A stretch of DNA of 64,000 nt. Origin: Burkholderiales bacterium. GTDB taxonomy: Bacteria; Pseudomonadota; Gammaproteobacteria; Burkholderiales; Eutrophovitaceae. The DNA is taken from positions 1-64,000 of the forward strand of contig DATMAN010000075.1 in NCBI GenBank assembly GCA_035560005.1. Direction: 5' to 3'. The position numbers and the translations under genes were made by a program. The notes beneath the pieces were generated by a model. It worked only from the letters and a program-made list of their open reading frames with translations. It searched no databases and was not told where the DNA came from. Below are positions 46,814-53,391 of this stretch, piece by piece; the stretch's first letter is position 1; every line of letters starts with the position of its first letter.

Positions 46814-48337
46814 ATGAAAGTACGCGCGCAGATCGCGATGGTGCTGAACCTGGACAAGTGCATCGGCTGCCACACCTGTTCGGTCACCTGCAAGAACGTA
46901 TGGACCAACCGCGCAGGCATGGAATACGCCTGGTTCAACAACGTGGAGACCAAACCCGGAATCGGCTACCCGAAGGAATGGGAGAACCAGGACAGATGGA
47001 ACGGTGGCTGGGTCCGCAAGGGCTCGGGCAGGATCGAGCCGAAACAGGGCGGCAAGTGGACGCTGCTCATGAAGATCTTCGCCAACCCCAGCCTGCCGCA
47101 GATCGACGATTACTACGAGCCGTTCACCTTCGATTACGAGCACCTGCACACCGCGCCCGAGATGCGGGCGGCACCGGTGGCGCGCCCGCGCTCGCTGATC
47201 ACGGGGGAGCGCATGCAGAAGATCGAGTGGGGGCCGAACTGGGAAGAGATCCTCGGAGGCGAGTTCGTCAAGCGCTCGAAGGACGTCAACTTCGAGGACG
47301 TGGAGAAGGAGATCTACGGGCAGTTCGAGAACACCTTCATGATGTATCTGCCGCGCCTGTGCGAGCACTGCCTGAACCCCACCTGCGTGGCGTCCTGTCC
47401 TTCGGGCTCGATCTACAAGCGCGAGGAAGACGGCATCGTCCTCATCGACCAGGACAAGTGTCGCGGCTGGCGCATGTGCGTCTCGGGCTGTCCGTACAAG
47501 AAGATCTATTACAACTGGGCCACCGGCAAGGCGGAGAAGTGCATCTTCTGTTATCCGCGCATCGAGGCCGGACAGCCCACCGTGTGCTCGGAGACCTGCG
47601 TGGGGCGCATCCGCTATCTGGGCGTGCTGCTCTACGACGCCGACCGCATCGCGCACGCGGCCGGCGTGGAAGATCCAAAGTCGCTCTACCAGGCGCAACT
47701 GGACATCTTCCTCGACCCCAACGACGCATCGGTGCTGGAGCAGGCACGGCGCGACGGCGTGCCCGAAGCGTGGCTGGAGGCGGCCAGGCGGTCGCCGACC
47801 TACAAGATGGCGGTGCAATGGCAAGTCGCGCTTCCCCTGCATCCCGAGTACCGCACGCTGCCGATGGTGTGGTATGTGCCGCCGCTGTCTCCCATCCAGG
47901 CGGCGGCGAACGCGGGCCAGGTCGGGACTTTCGGCGAGCTGCCGGATGTACGCAGCCTGCGCATCCCGCTCAGATATCTGGCGAACCTGCTCAGCGCCGG
48001 GGACGAGGCACCGGTCGCCCGGGCGCTGGAGCGGATGCTCGCCATGCGCGCTTACATGCGCGACCGGCACGTCGAGAAGCGCGAAAACCACGCCGTCCTC
48101 GAGCAGGTCGGCCTGACGGTCGGGCAGGTCGAGGAGATGTACCGCTACATGGCCATCGCCAACTACGAGGACCGCTTCGTGATCCCGACCACGCACCGCG
48201 AGTATGCCGAAGACGCTTTCGAGCTGCGCGGCGGCTGCGGGTTCTCCTTCGGCAACGGCTGTTCTCCAGGCGCGAGCGAAACCAGCCTGTTCGGCGGCAA
48301 GCGCCGCAAGACCATACCCATCAAGGCCCAGGCTTGA
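46814..48337 (+). CDS. narH: Respiratory nitrate reductase beta subunit NarH
   Basis: 507-aa Fe-S subunit carrying electrons from NarI to NarG. Four cysteine clusters are present: C16-C19-C22-C26 (CIGCHTCSVTC), CEHCLNPTCVASCP, the Trp-containing CRGWRMCVSGCP that binds the [3Fe-4S] cluster, and CIFCYPRIEAGQPTVCSETC. Length is normal. The ATG at 46814 follows a CAGGAGCG site after a repeat-containing gap. Confidence 0.98.
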   Translation: MKVRAQIAMVLNLDKCIGCHTCSVTCKNVWTNRAGMEYAWFNNVETKPGIGYPKEWENQDRWNGGWVRKGSGRIEPKQGGKWTLLMKIFANPSLPQIDDYYEPFTFDYEHLHTAPEMRAAPVARPRSLITGERMQKIEWGPNWEEILGGEFVKRSKDVNFEDVEKEIYGQFENTFMMYLPRLCEHCLNPTCVASCPSGSIYKREEDGIVLIDQDKCRGWRMCVSGCPYKKIYYNWATGKAEKCIFCYPRIEAGQPTVCSETCVGRIRYLGVLLYDADRIAHAAGVEDPKSLYQAQLDIFLDPNDASVLEQARRDGVPEAWLEAARRSPTYKMAVQWQVALPLHPEYRTLPMVWYVPPLSPIQAAANAGQVGTFGELPDVRSLRIPLRYLANLLSAGDEAPVARALERMLAMRAYMRDRHVEKRENHAVLEQVGLTVGQVEEMYRYMAIANYEDRFVIPTTHREYAEDAFELRGGCGFSFGNGCSPGASETSLFGGKRRKTIPIKAQA

Positions 48338-48376
48338 ACGACGCAGGACCCGGGGAAGGACACAGGGATGATGAGT

Positions 48377-48566
48377 GAAACGAAGACACGAAGACACGAA
48401 GTGAACCGGGTTGGTGGGAAACCTCCGCTTGTTGGAGGTTCCGGCAACACGGTCGTATTCGGGGTTGGCTCGATGCGATGAAGAATCTATCTTCCTGCGC
48501 GTCTCTTCGTGTCTTCGTGCCTACGCGTTTCGCTCTCGAGGTTCTCCGTGTCTCGGTGGCGAAAGG
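48377..48566. repeat. Inverted-repeat intergenic element between narH and narJ, copy C
   Basis: A perfect 15-bp inverted repeat CACGAAGACACGAAG (48387-48401) / CTTCGTGTCTTCGTG (48505-48519) bounds ~100 bp that includes a small hairpin AACCTCC/GGAGGTT (48420-48440). The segment 48514-48555 matches copy A (18000-18041) at 36 of 42 bases, and 48548-48566 matches copy D (53465-53484). The element ends only 9 bp before the narJ start. Confidence 0.65.
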
Positions 48567-48574
48567 ACTGCCGA

Positions 48575-49234
48575 ATGATTAGCCTCAAGGCGCTGGGGGC
48601 GCTGTTGATGTATCCGCAACCCGAGCTGATCGAGGCGTTGCCGGAGATCGGCGCGGTGCTGGAGGCGGAGAAGGCGCTGTCGCGCCAGGACAAGGCGCAG
48701 CTCGCCGGCCTGATCGCCGAATTGCGCGGCGCCGAACTGCTCGATGCGCAGGAGCGCTATGTCGAACTGTTCGACCGCGGACGCGCGACCTCTTTGCATC
48801 TGTTCGAGCATGTGCATGGCGATTCGCGCAGCCGCGGACAGGCGATGGTGGATCTGAGGGCGATGTACGAGCGCGCCGGTCTGCGCCTGTCCGCGAACGA
48901 GCTGCCGGACTACCTGCCGGCGGTGCTCGAGTATCTGTCGCTGCGTCCTCTCGCCGAAGTGCGCGACATGCTGCGGGACTGCGCCCACATCCTGCGCGCG
49001 GTGGGTGATGCCCTGGCCGGCCGTGAGTCGCGCTACAGCGCGGTGTTCGGTGCGCTGCTCTCGGTGGCTGGGGAGGAAGGCTTGAGCCGCGTACCCGAGC
49101 CGTGCCGGAGTCCTGAAGAGGAGCGCCGAGCGCTCGACGAGGAGTGGATCGACAAGCCGGTGCTGTTCGGACTCGGCGCCGGCGATGCACGGCCCGCTGC
49201 GCAGGTGGTGAAGTTCGTCAAGAGAACGCCCTGA
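48575..49234 (+). CDS. narJ: Nitrate reductase molybdenum cofactor assembly chaperone NarJ
   Basis: 219-aa cytoplasmic chaperone of the TorD/NarJ fold that helps insert cofactors into NarG. The conserved YVELFDRGRATSLHLFEHVHGDSRSRGQAM block is split across about residues 56-85, and LSANELPDYLPAVLEYL follows. The ATG at 48575 is chosen at the conserved MISLKALGALL start; an in-frame ATG at 48509 would begin inside the repeat element. A weak GAAAGGA site precedes it. Confidence 0.96.
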   Translation: MISLKALGALLMYPQPELIEALPEIGAVLEAEKALSRQDKAQLAGLIAELRGAELLDAQERYVELFDRGRATSLHLFEHVHGDSRSRGQAMVDLRAMYERAGLRLSANELPDYLPAVLEYLSLRPLAEVRDMLRDCAHILRAVGDALAGRESRYSAVFGALLSVAGEEGLSRVPEPCRSPEEERRALDEEWIDKPVLFGLGAGDARPAAQVVKFVKRTP

Positions 49235-49247
49235 CGGGAGTATCCGC

Positions 49248-49940
49248 ATGCAATACGCCGATTACCTGAACCAGTTTCTGTTCGGCATCTATCCCTACGT
49301 CGCGCTGGTCGTCTTCTTCGTGGGCAGCCTGATCCGTTTCGACCGCGAGCAATACACCTGGAAGAGCGACTCTTCGCAGCTGCTCAGGGCCGGCCAGCTG
49401 CGCTGGGGTTCCAACCTGTTTCACGTCGGCATCCTGGGGATCTTCTTCGGACACCTGGTCGGACTGCTGACGCCGGTCTCGGTCTGGCACGCGATCGGGG
49501 TGTCCGCCACGGCGAAGCAGTGGCTGGCCATCGTCGCCGGCGGGATCTTCGGCGCGCTGTGCCTGGCGGGACTGCTTCTGCTGCTGCATCGCCGGCTGTT
49601 CGATGCGCGCATCCGGTCGACCAGCAAGGCCATGGATATCGTGGTGCTTGCGCTGTTTCTCGCCCAGCTGCTGCTCGGCCTGTTCAGCATCACCATCTCG
49701 CTGCAACACCTGGACGGCTCCGAGATGATCAAGTTCATGGAGTGGGCCCAGCGCATCGTGACGTTCAGGGGCGGTGCGGCCGATCTGGTGGCGGGCGCGT
49801 CCTGGATCTTCAAGGCGCACCTGGTGCTCGGATTGACGATCTTTCTGATCTTCCCGTTCACCCGCCTGGTCCACATCTGGAGCGGTTTCGCCACGGTCTT
49901 CTATTTGTTCCGGCCCTACCAGATCGTGAGGCAGCGGTGA
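49248..49940 (+). CDS. narI: Respiratory nitrate reductase gamma subunit NarI (cytochrome b)
   Basis: 230-aa diheme cytochrome b that oxidises quinol and anchors NarGH to the membrane. Five helices are predicted, with heme-ligand histidines in SNLFHVGI, FFGHLVG, IFKAHLVLG and RLVHIWSG, as in E. coli. It starts 13 bp after narJ. Its last codons overlap the GTG start of the next gene by 4 bp. Confidence 0.97.
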   Translation: MQYADYLNQFLFGIYPYVALVVFFVGSLIRFDREQYTWKSDSSQLLRAGQLRWGSNLFHVGILGIFFGHLVGLLTPVSVWHAIGVSATAKQWLAIVAGGIFGALCLAGLLLLLHRRLFDARIRSTSKAMDIVVLALFLAQLLLGLFSITISLQHLDGSEMIKFMEWAQRIVTFRGGAADLVAGASWIFKAHLVLGLTIFLIFPFTRLVHIWSGFATVFYLFRPYQIVRQR

Positions 49941-50632
49941 TCAGCGTCAACGGCACCGAGGTCGCAGACCGGCTTGGCGCGGTGCGCGAGCTGCTCCGGC
50001 AACGCGCGGTCGCCGTGGGGCTTCTCGCTCTCGATGCACCGGAGGCGGCGGTCGAGGAGGCCATCGAGCGCCTGCTCGATCAGGAGGTGCGAACACCCGA
50101 GCCGACGGAAGAGGAATGCCGCCGCTACTACGAGGCGCACCGCACGGAATTCATCGCGGGCGAACTGGTGTTCGCGCGTCACATCCTGTTCGCGGTCACG
50201 GCCGGGGTGCCGGTGGCTGCGCTGCGCCGGAAAGCGGAGGAAACGCTGCTCGAACTGCGTGCGCACCCGGAACTGTTCGAGACCCGCGCGAAAGAACTTT
50301 CCAACTGCCCCAGCGGGCAACTGGGCGGTGCGCTCGGCCAGATCTCCAGGGGCGAATCGGTGCCGGAATTCGAGCAGGCGGTGTTTGCACAGGCCACCAC
50401 CGGCATTCTTCCGCGCCTCGTGAACACCCGCTACGGCTTTCACATCGTCGCGGTCGACGGGCACGTTCCCGGGCGGCTCGTGCCGTTCGAGGCGGTGTGC
50501 GGGCGGATCGCGCAGCGCCTGCAGCAAAGCGTACGCGCCAAGGCGCTCGAACAGTACGTCGCGGTGCTGGCCGGGCAGGCGGAAGTGGTCGGCGTCGATT
50601 TGCGGGCTGTGGCTACGCCGTTGGTGCAGTGA
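49937..50632 (+). CDS. PpiC/parvulin-type peptidyl-prolyl isomerase coupled to narI
   Basis: 231-aa protein with a parvulin domain at about residues 70-185 (ARHILFAVTAG, then FETRAKELSNCPSGQLGGALGQ, then RYGFHIVAVD). The N-terminal part is helical, as in the NifM/SurA-like group. No signal peptide is present, so it acts in the cytoplasm, where NarG and NarH mature. The GTG start overlaps the narI stop (GTGA at 49937-49940), so it is a genuine sixth gene of the nar operon. Isomerases of this type follow narI in several Betaproteobacteria; a folding role for NarGHI is inferred from context. Confidence 0.9.
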   Translation: MISVNGTEVADRLGAVRELLRQRAVAVGLLALDAPEAAVEEAIERLLDQEVRTPEPTEEECRRYYEAHRTEFIAGELVFARHILFAVTAGVPVAALRRKAEETLLELRAHPELFETRAKELSNCPSGQLGGALGQISRGESVPEFEQAVFAQATTGILPRLVNTRYGFHIVAVDGHVPGRLVPFEAVCGRIAQRLQQSVRAKALEQYVAVLAGQAEVVGVDLRAVATPLVQ

Positions 50633-50731
50633 GGCGGGAGAAACAGCGGACTGCGATGAGGCGGACCGGGGAAGAGCATCCGCAATATCCCGGTCCGCAC
50701 TCTGATGGCCCGCAGTTCACGGCTTGCACCC

Positions 50732-51208
50732 ATGAGTGACTTCCTGCTGGCCCGCGCCCTGCACGTGCTCGGCGTGGTGATGTGGATCGGCGGCGTTGCA
50801 TTCGTGACGCTCGTCCTGCTGCCCGCCTTGCGCGCAAGAGTGGATCCGCAGCAACGCGTCGCCTTCTTCGAGCGCATCGAGTCGGGCTTCGCCCGGCAGG
50901 CGAGGTGGACCACTCTGGTCACCGGTATCTCCGGGTTCTATCTCGTTTACCGGCTGGATGCCTGGGAACGGTTCGCGCAAGTGTCCTTCTGGTGGATGCA
51001 CGCGATGGTCGCCGTGTGGGCGATATTCACAGTCATGCTGTTCGTGATCGAACCGTTGTGGCTGCACGAGTGGTTCCTGACGCGTGCCCGGCGCGACCTG
51101 GAGCCGACGTTCAGAATGGTCGAGCGCCTGCATTGGTTGCTGCTCGTGCTGAGCCTCGTGACCGTGGCCGGCGCGGCAGCGGGCAGCCATGGATGGTTGT
51201 GGATGTGA
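50732..51208 (+). CDS. Conserved membrane protein, CopD-like
   Basis: 158-aa protein with four predicted helices. ALHVLGVVMWIGGVAFVTLVLLP at the N-terminus places a His-Trp motif in the first helix, a pattern shared with CopD-like and DUF2269-type proteins that may bind heme or copper. A second His cluster is in SFWWMHAMV and ERLHWLLL. The ATG at 50732 is preferred to the one at 50705, which would add a hydrophilic stub. Its stop codon touches the MITE-like element at 51208. Confidence 0.75.
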   Translation: MSDFLLARALHVLGVVMWIGGVAFVTLVLLPALRARVDPQQRVAFFERIESGFARQARWTTLVTGISGFYLVYRLDAWERFAQVSFWWMHAMVAVWAIFTVMLFVIEPLWLHEWFLTRARRDLEPTFRMVERLHWLLLVLSLVTVAGAAAGSHGWLWM

Positions 51209-51394
51209 TGAACCTATCTCAAAATCCCCGACGGCCGCTTATCGTCGCAACCCTTCGGGGCGGGATCGCCTGGGGCGCATCGCTTCGTTGCAGCTCGGGT
51301 CCTTGGCTCTGGCCAATGGTCTCGCTGCCCGCGCCTCGCGCTGCATCCCCAGGCAACCCCGCCGCGGCCGCCGGGGATTTTGAGATAGGTTCAT
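51208..51394. mobile_element. 187-bp MITE-like element with 31-bp terminal inverted repeats
   Basis: The ends 51208-51238 and 51364-51394 are inverted repeats of 31 bp with one mismatch; the outer 23 bp are perfect and begin ATGAACCTATCTCAAAATCC. The 125-bp interior also has a shorter inverted pair (CCTGGGG near 51270 / CCCCAGG near 51348). No transposase is encoded. No clear target-site duplication is visible. The left end shares its first A with the upstream stop codon, and the right end supplies the ATG of the next gene. Confidence 0.75.
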
Positions 51395-51776
51395 GACCCT
51401 TTACTGGTCGCTCAAGTATGTGCACGTTGGCGCGGTCGTCGCGAGCGCCAGCCTGTTCCTGCTGCGCGGGGCCTGGATGCTGGCTTCCCCGTCCCTGCTG
51501 CAGCGCCGGTGGGTGCGGGTCGTGCCGCACGTCGTCGACAGCGTGCTGCTCGCCGCAGCGCTCGGGCTGATCTGGCTCACCGGCCAGTATCCGTTCGCAC
51601 AGCCCTGGCTCACCGCGAAGGTCCTGGCGCTCGTCGCCTACATCGTGCTGGGCAGCATCGCGCTCAGGCGCGGGCGCACGCCGTGGGTGCGTGCTGCGGC
51701 CTTTGTCGCGGCCGTCTCGATGTTCGCCTACATCGTCGGGGTGGCACTCACCCGCTCACCCTCGCTCGGTTTCTAG
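51393..51776 (+). CDS. SirB2-family integral membrane protein
   Basis: 127-aa protein with four helices. The opening LYWSLKYVHVGAVVASASLF and the LLRGAWML, VPHVVDSVLL and PWLTAKVLALVAYIVLGSIAL segments are typical of the SirB family, with conserved His residues in helices 1 and 3. The name comes from a Salmonella regulator; the actual role is unknown. Its start codon is contributed by the right terminal repeat of the MITE-like element, and any ribosome site must lie within the repeat (GAGATAGG). It is often found near respiratory genes. Confidence 0.82.
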   Translation: MTLYWSLKYVHVGAVVASASLFLLRGAWMLASPSLLQRRWVRVVPHVVDSVLLAAALGLIWLTGQYPFAQPWLTAKVLALVAYIVLGSIALRRGRTPWVRAAAFVAAVSMFAYIVGVALTRSPSLGF

Positions 51777-51862
51777 CCGCGCGGCCGCGCCGGGGGCCGC
51801 CGCATCCGCCTCACGCCGCGCGCAATCTCCAGCGCTTTCCAGCCTGCGCGCGCATCCGGTTT

Positions 51863-51903
51863 TGATCTAGGTCAACGGCTTTCCGCCCTCGGCCGGTAGC
51901 ATT
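51863..51903 (+). promoter_or_regulatory. FNR/ANR-dependent class II promoter of the cco operon
   Basis: TTGAT-CTAG-GTCAA (51863-51876) matches nine of ten FNR consensus bases. A -10-like TAGCAT (51898-51903) is centred 31 bp downstream, the class II arrangement. Transcription would start near 51910, 57 bp before ccoN. Anaerobic or low-oxygen control of ccoNOQP by an FNR-family regulator is well established in related bacteria. Confidence 0.75.
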
Positions 51904-51966
51904 CCGACCGACTCACCGGCGGGCGCGAGGGCGCCGCGCGGTCGACTTCGGGAATCGGGAGCGCTC

Positions 51967-53391
51967 ATGGCGGAACAGGCCACCTACAACTACAAGGTAG
52001 TCCGGCAATTCGCGATCATGACCGTCGTCTGGGGCGTGGTCGGGATGGCGGTCGGGGTGCTGATCGCCGCCCAGCTCATGTTTCCGGACCTGACCTACGG
52101 GATTCCGTGGCTCTCCTATGGCCGGCTGCGGCCGCTGCACACCAACGCCGTCATCTTCGCCTTTGGCGGCTGCGCCCTTTTCGCCACTTCTTACTATGTG
52201 GTCCAGCGCACCTGTCACGTGCGGCTGTTCTCCGACCAACTGGCGGCCTTCACCTTCTGGGGCTGGCAGGCGGTCATCGTGCTGGCGGCGCTCACCCTGC
52301 CCGCCGGTATCACGACCTCCCACGAGTACGCGGAGCTGGAGTGGCCGATCGACATCCTGATCACGCTCGTGTGGGTAGCCTATGCGGTGGTGTTCTTCGG
52401 CACGCTGGCCCGGCGCAAGGTCGCGCACATTTACGTGGCGAACTGGTTCTTCGGCGCCTTCATCCTGACGGTGGCGCTGCTGCACCTGGTCAACAGCGCC
52501 CAGGTTCCGGTGTCGCTGTGGAAATCCTATTACGTGTACGCCGGTGTCCAGGACGCCATGGTGCAGTGGTGGTACGGGCACAACGCGGTGGGTTTCTTCC
52601 TGACCGCGGGCTTCCTCGGGATGATGTACTACTTCGTCCCCAAGCAGGCGCAGCGCCCGATCTACAGCTACCGCCTGTCGGTGGTGCACTTCTGGGCGCT
52701 GATCTTCACTTACATGTGGGCCGGGCCGCATCACCTGCACTACACCGCGCTGCCCGACTGGACCCAGTCGCTCGGGATGATCTTCTCGCTGATCCTGCTG
52801 GCGCCCTCCTGGGGTGGCATGATCAACGGGATCATGACGCTCTCGGGCGCGTGGCACAAACTGCGCACCGATCCGATCCTGAAGTTCCTGATCGTGTCGC
52901 TGTCCTTCTACGGCATGTCGACCTTCGAGGGACCGATGATGTCGATCAAGACGGTCAACTCGCTGTCGCATTACACGGACTGGACGGTCGGCCACGTGCA
53001 CTCGGGCGCGCTGGGCTGGGTGGCCTTCATTTCGGTCGGCAGCCTCTACTACCTGATCCCGCGGCTGTTCGGGCGCACGCAGATGTACAGCGTGCCGCTG
53101 ATCACCACGCACTTCTGGATCGCCACGATCGGCGTGGTGCTCTACATCGCCGCCATGTGGATCGCGGGCGTGATGCAGGGCCTGATGTGGCGCGCGGTCA
53201 ACCCGGACGGCACCTTGACCTATACCTTCGTGGAGAGCGTCAAGGCCAGCTACCCGTTCTACGCGATCCGCCTGCTCGGAGGACTGCTGTTTCTCTCGGG
53301 AATGCTGATCATGGCCTACAACGTGTGGAAGACGGTGGTGGGCGCGAAGCCGGTCGAGGCGATGATCCCGGCACCCGCCGCGGCGCATTGA
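51967..53391 (+). CDS. ccoN: cbb3-type cytochrome c oxidase subunit I
   Basis: 474-aa catalytic subunit with 12 helices; it reduces O2 to water with high affinity. Heme b ligand His58 is in RLRPLHTN. CuB-site histidines are in [10 protein letters not shown] and AGPHHLHYT. The heme ligand pair is in WTVGHVHSG, and the helix-VII Tyr that replaces the usual cross-linked Tyr is in [12 protein letters not shown]. Length is normal. It is the first gene of ccoNOQP-cyb561-ccoGH. Confidence 0.98.

Follow-up and report, generated by a model that had tools for sequence, protein, structure and literature searches.

A miniature transposable element between a CopD-like and a sirB2-like gene, probably inserted at their stop/start overlap, and the widespread family to which it belongs

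One question raised by the locus described here is how a mobile element can come to lie between two genes of one strand, in contact with the stop codon of the first and the start codon of the second, and leave both proteins intact, and what such an element then does to the expression of the second gene. The locus lies in the window, by which we mean the whole stretch of DNA analysed (64,000 nt, positions 1 to 64,000 of contig DATMAN010000075.1, assembly GCA_035560005.1, Burkholderiales bacterium). In the list of open reading frames the upstream gene, for a small CopD-like/DUF4149-like membrane protein, occupies 50705-51208 on the + strand (its start possibly at 50732) and ends in a TGA at 51206-51208, while the sirB2-like gene, encoding 127 aa, begins with an ATG at 51393 and extends to 51776 on the same strand, leaving a gap of 51209-51392 between TGA and ATG. 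Both gene names were given in an earlier note on this DNA. The SirB2 identity of the downstream ORF is solid (PF04247, E 3.6e-42), whereas CopD-like is a weak assignment, the upstream protein matching DUF4149 only, and below its cut-off; homologues of the upstream gene adjoin sirB2 in three relatives (loci L041, L043 and L046). Reading the codons, we find an in-frame TGA four codons 5' of the sirB2 ATG, which rules out a longer sirB2 start inside the element. By eye, from translations, narH-, narJ- and narI-like ORFs and an ORF for a PpiC-like peptidyl-prolyl isomerase lie directly 5' of the pair (46814-50632). On the other side, and again by eye, TTGATCTAGGTCAA at 51862-51875 resembles an FNR/ANR box 5' of a ccoN-like gene at 51967, which suggests a separate promoter for the cbb3 oxidase genes, whereby they would escape any polar effect of the element.

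The element, its copies and its internal deletion

What occupies the gap is a MITE insertion, ordinary in kind and at an unusual spot. On the evidence of genomic copies and of 70 same-ended elements it spans 51210-51392 (+ strand, 183 bp, without a transposase ORF in the list) and derives by internal deletion from a 271-273-bp element. Its left terminal inverted repeat, GAACCTATCTCAAAATCCCCGACGGCCGC, lies at 51210-51238 (+) and its right one at 51364-51392 (-). The boundary GAACC...GGTTC was set by comparison with the other copies, and the outer AT on each side is most likely flanking target; the element thus occupies the gap, as first described, at a size that excludes these outer bases. The inverted arms, 51205-51238 and 51364-51397, are 34 nt long and 94% complementary (the 31-nt arms of the earlier note are 97% identical to each other), and the predicted folding energy as single-stranded DNA, -68.2 kcal/mol, lies well below the -39.0 +/- 3.1 of shuffles (z -9.4). 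Arms, fold energy and dispersed copies agree in upholding a MITE with 31-bp inverted ends between the two genes.

A search of the same genome for other copies, as had been proposed, located eight further places with copies or pieces, at 92-98% identity over the shared part, so that nine places carry the element when the window copy is included. In the 3.6-Mb genome there are ten exact occurrences of the end GAACCTATCTCAAAA and one more with a single mismatch; the other intact ends are all flanked by TA, mostly as CTA...TAG. Two copies are complete (contig C29, 62604-62876, 273 bp; contig C38, 9848-10118, 271 bp), and six lie at contig ends, as expected because repeats break an assembly. At the start of contig C94 of this genome (G000; L032:1-235) a copy truncated at its right end is joined to unrelated sequence after CCCCAG. 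The full copies on C29 and C38 read CCCCGACGG-TCGCG...GACGCAGACGG-CCGCTT where the window copy reads CCCCGACGG-CCGCTT, and hence about 86 bp between two GACGG repeats are gone from the latter, with the junction at 51230-51234 (+). The missing stretch includes the 5' half of the first internal hairpin (hairpin I), and the leftover GACGGCCGC happens to extend the pairing of the ends.

The stop/start junction and the duplicated target

When the gene pair is compared in the three relatives in which both genes are adjacent, all three (L041, L043 and L046) have overlapping stop and start codons, no spacer and no element. The junctions read ...TTCTGATGGAC, with a TGATG overlap, ...GCATCATGAGT, with ATGA, and ...CCGTGACC, with GTGA in the context GTGACC. 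This overlap argues that the insertion probably split an overlapped, and probably coupled, pair. In the window the left junction is GATGTGAT followed by GAACC, and the right one GGTTC followed by ATGACC; with the element and one AT removed, the sequence becomes GATGTGATGACC, again a TGATG overlap. The genome collection contained no empty site from the same genus.

Most simply, then, the target AT was duplicated on insertion into GTGATGACC. Its putative left copy (51208-51209) would contribute its A as the last base of the TGA stop, and its putative right copy (51393-51394) the A and T of the sirB2 ATG, completed by the native G. Since both codons would be kept by duplication of the target, the element would supply neither, and the contention that it supplies the next start codon is most likely wrong: the TGA is that of the upstream gene, and duplicated AT plus native G accounts most simply for the ATG. 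Nor does the pair in relatives, overlapped without a spacer, bear out the companion claim that translation of SirB2 depends on the element, whose hairpin more probably impairs it. As a target AT is unusual, the window copy having AT/AT where the other copies have TA.

An alternative, which we consider unlikely, starts from GTGACC as the pre-insertion site, duplicated as TGA, so that the element would have an outer T...A and its last base, A, would turn a GTG start into ATG. The L046 pair does overlap as GTGACC, and TGA stands both at 51206-51208 and at 51394-51396. However, all other ends in the same genome and nearly all same-ended elements have TA immediately beside GAACC/GGTTC, ends of the form TGAACC...GGTTCA with a 3-bp duplication would be unique, and the relative L041 has TGATG. 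We therefore retain duplication of AT as the preferred reading.

Source of the transposase and effect on expression

The window element encodes no transposase, and its parent has to be sought among elements with the same ends. A scan of bacterial genomes for TAGAACCTATCTCAAAA gave at least 119 stretches, those among the matches listed coming from Nitrospirota, Desulfobacterota, Gammaproteobacteria, Bacteroidota, Verrucomicrobiota and others. Pairing of ends among the matches listed, in a search that required one TA, yielded 70 elements, mostly of 42-274 bp, with TA on both sides in 54 and on one side in the other 16; AT/AT flanks were found in none of these 70, a tally biased against them by its demand for one TA end. 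Three Nitrospira elements with the same 15-16-bp ends are larger (808, 833 and 834 bp), and L076, L122 and L124 are flanked TA/TA. In the two of the three that had ORFs listed (L122 and L124) an IS5-family transposase is encoded in two ORFs (NF033580, E 7e-38, over the cut-off; PF13340, DUF4096, and PF01609, DDE_Tnp_1); placement in the IS427 group is based on the two ORFs and the domains rather than on ISfinder. In further taxa, Burkholderiales MAGs among them, transposase remnants at contig edges directly adjoin the same ends. A parent IS with the end GAACCTATCTCAAAA, the search for which the earlier note had recommended, thus exists in other bacteria, while the draft genome that contains the window yielded no transposase with these ends. 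An IS5-like transposase piece in that genome (G000 C85:137-466, L203; 39.9 bits, below the cut-off) is without the GAACCTATCTCAAAA ends and was rejected as the source. The TA and CTAG targets had first suggested an IS630/Tc1 origin, which was dropped once the transposase proved to be of IS5 type. Among viral contigs, 100 stretches contain the 15-mer, every listed one as a single match with no paired ends, and these are probably chance matches; a plasmid search with two elements gave a match for neither.

Known systems resemble the window element in part. The IS427 group of the IS5 family (e.g. ISPsp10; PMC4133298) shares the TA duplication, the two transposase ORFs and the combination of DDE_Tnp_1 and DUF4096 found in the same-ended IS, and it offers a precedent, in that an IS of this group takes its stop codon from the duplicated TA target (PMC4133298); it differs in that the window element has no transposase, preserves the start codon also, and is flanked by AT, not TA. 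The Correia/NEMIS elements of Neisseria and the RUP elements of pneumococcus (PMC2229807) are likewise small, TA-flanked, gene-less and intergenic, with long hairpins, but have other ends, whereas the window family is 271-273 bp at full length and has a three-way junction formed from an inverted dimer. The R0/R2 repeats of Pseudomonas fluorescens (PMC2718517) are similarly MITE-like with IS-like inverted ends, but by their description they are 89-110 bp and form a simple stem with a loop; their authors argue for selection against insertion between co-oriented genes (PMC2718517). The Tn3-derived TIMEs (PMC4133298), of about 262 bp, are non-autonomous, with a conserved predicted fold and mosaic derivatives; unlike the window family, they have 38-bp Tn3-type ends, 5-6-bp duplications and another class of transposase.

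The account that we regard as very probable is based, by sequence, on the element, its copies and ends, the TA habit of the family, the deletion and the overlap in relatives. An IS5-family (IS427-like) transposase, presumably acting in trans, would have recognised the GAACCTATCTCAAAA ends and moved the MITE into the stop/start overlap of the copD-like gene and sirB2, probably TGATG, cutting at AT where TA is usual; the two bases would have been duplicated, with the consequence that TGA and ATG both survive. The internal deletion of the 271-273-bp form could have arisen before or after insertion. In the mRNA the element would form one long hairpin with the region 5' of the sirB2 start in its stem, and would place 184 nt between stop and start, with translational coupling presumably lost, sirB2 expression lowered and the copD-like gene little affected.

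In the predicted mRNA fold a stem of about 30 bp takes in the 20 nt before the ATG, and stop and start face one another at the foot of the stem. A pattern search of 50600-52000, element included, detected neither a promoter nor a terminator, and the locus shows no good Shine-Dalgarno signal. Reviewed data indicate that coupling weakens as stop and start move apart and when structure follows directly on the upstream stop (PMC12548453), and these data together with the hairpin at the start make uncoupling and reduced sirB2 translation the best guess. Lower sirB2 expression is accordingly predicted as the likelier effect of the hairpin, from the modelled fold; in the same model RNase III might cut the hairpin, or ribosomes might re-initiate across its base.

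A different interpretation makes the element a domesticated regulatory hairpin, serving as an RNase III target, as an attenuator or as a coupler joining stop and start. The hairpin is strong, stop and start do face each other at the stem base, and RNase III processing is reported for the TA-flanked MITEs of Neisseria (PMC2229807). We nevertheless think domestication quite improbable, since the hairpin shape is common to all copies and not specific to this site, is absent between these genes in relatives, and comes with none of the promoter, terminator or Shine-Dalgarno signals sought. That the region is instead an ancient and fixed one, never mobile, is almost certainly wrong: it would fit the lack of a transposase with these ends in the same genome, but it is already contradicted by the multiple dispersed copies, as also by the precise ends and by relatives without the spacer, and the earlier note's own ground for doubt, namely that distant genera share the sequence at this position and have no other copies, does not agree with what we found.

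On the preferred reading, insertion with duplication of AT, the locus is a readable example of a transposon that splits an overlapped gene pair without harm to either protein, since duplication of 2 bp restores the stop as well as the start codon.

An inverted-dimer interior and its spread

The full-length form of the window MITE belongs to a widespread family, whose three-arm fold is kept across phyla where sequence and ends differ. The second hairpin of the conserved interior (hairpin II) lies in the window at 51252-51365 (+; R2 model, 80.6 bits), and the model of hairpin I (R1) matches it on the - strand (51252-51367, 38.9 bits, E 6e-8). Since R1 recognises hairpin II on the opposite strand, the full-length interior is, as read from sequence, an inverted dimer of one ~110-nt hairpin, predicted to form a three-way junction. 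An alignment of 19 elements (A1) has one three-stem structure of 98 pairs, in which 93.4% of cells pair and 75 of the 98 pairs show compensatory changes. For covariation the structure scores 0.577; shuffles score 0.180, a comparison inflated by relatedness, and slid versions of the structure <=0.11, a comparison favoured by its derivation from the same sequences. Even so, with so wide a margin and so many compensated pairs, chance is unlikely. Rfam gave no match for the element up to E 1, and only a tRNA in the window.

GT and AC mispairs are nearly equal in A1 (44 and 32). RNA helices tolerate GU far more, and selection at the level of RNA was rejected on this parity. In two elements the core of a hairpin is flipped relative to its stem (hairpin I in L191, hairpin II in L179), as if the arms had been exchanged by recombination or template switching. 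Parity and flipped cores together suggest that it is as DNA that the palindrome is maintained. Template switching, by correcting one arm against the other, could keep it so without selection, but the invariant unpaired positions argue against this as the whole story.

Searched by BLAST against 399 genomes of the order, the 273-bp copy matched 32 genomes of 18 genera, its own included, although some short ones (e.g. L194, L197, L199-L201) lie within genes and look like chance. Many matching interiors carry other ends (GGGCGTGTTAACACTAATTT, GGGCTCGTTAATGAATAA, GGGAACCTCTGATTAAG, GGGCCTGTTCACAC, GGGTCTGTTAACATTTATC, GGGAGCCTCTGAAGGATGC), mostly beside TA, and are 264-300 bp long where complete. 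Across the phylum R1 matches 79 of 398 sampled genomes (about 20%) and 50 of 213 genera, several of these matches sitting in TA-flanked elements with still other ends. The window's own ends occur together with the interior in an Opitutales MAG (Verrucomicrobiota), in a 274-bp element of largely different sequence and the same kind of fold, and in a Chromatiales MAG, where 19 matches were counted; of the ten genomes in the same test, six gave none. Most elements elsewhere with the window's ends are without this interior. Interiors shared under other ends, and ends shared without the interior, mean that the two occur in different combinations (superfamily loci: L174-L191, L193, L196, L198; L304-L333; L073, L096, L100, L141, L154).

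Tentatively, the window element may be a defective member of a superfamily, so far undescribed, that crosses phyla and in which a fold is selected at the DNA level and combined with several IS5-type ends. The unit would be the inverted dimer of the ~110-nt hairpin, with its invariant unpaired positions, closed by a third stem, and the fold could, for example, be recognised as single-stranded DNA in replication or transposition. A limited open-access text search found no description of the element family, and queries with the end sequences led only to unrelated papers. The family, with its conserved three-arm interior, is a more interesting result than the insertion itself: it covaries as structural RNAs do, yet its mismatches and flipped cores point to DNA. 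If selection acts on the folded DNA, and the palindrome is not kept only by arm-to-arm correction, then gene-less elements, of a kind for which we found no description, would carry a functional structure.
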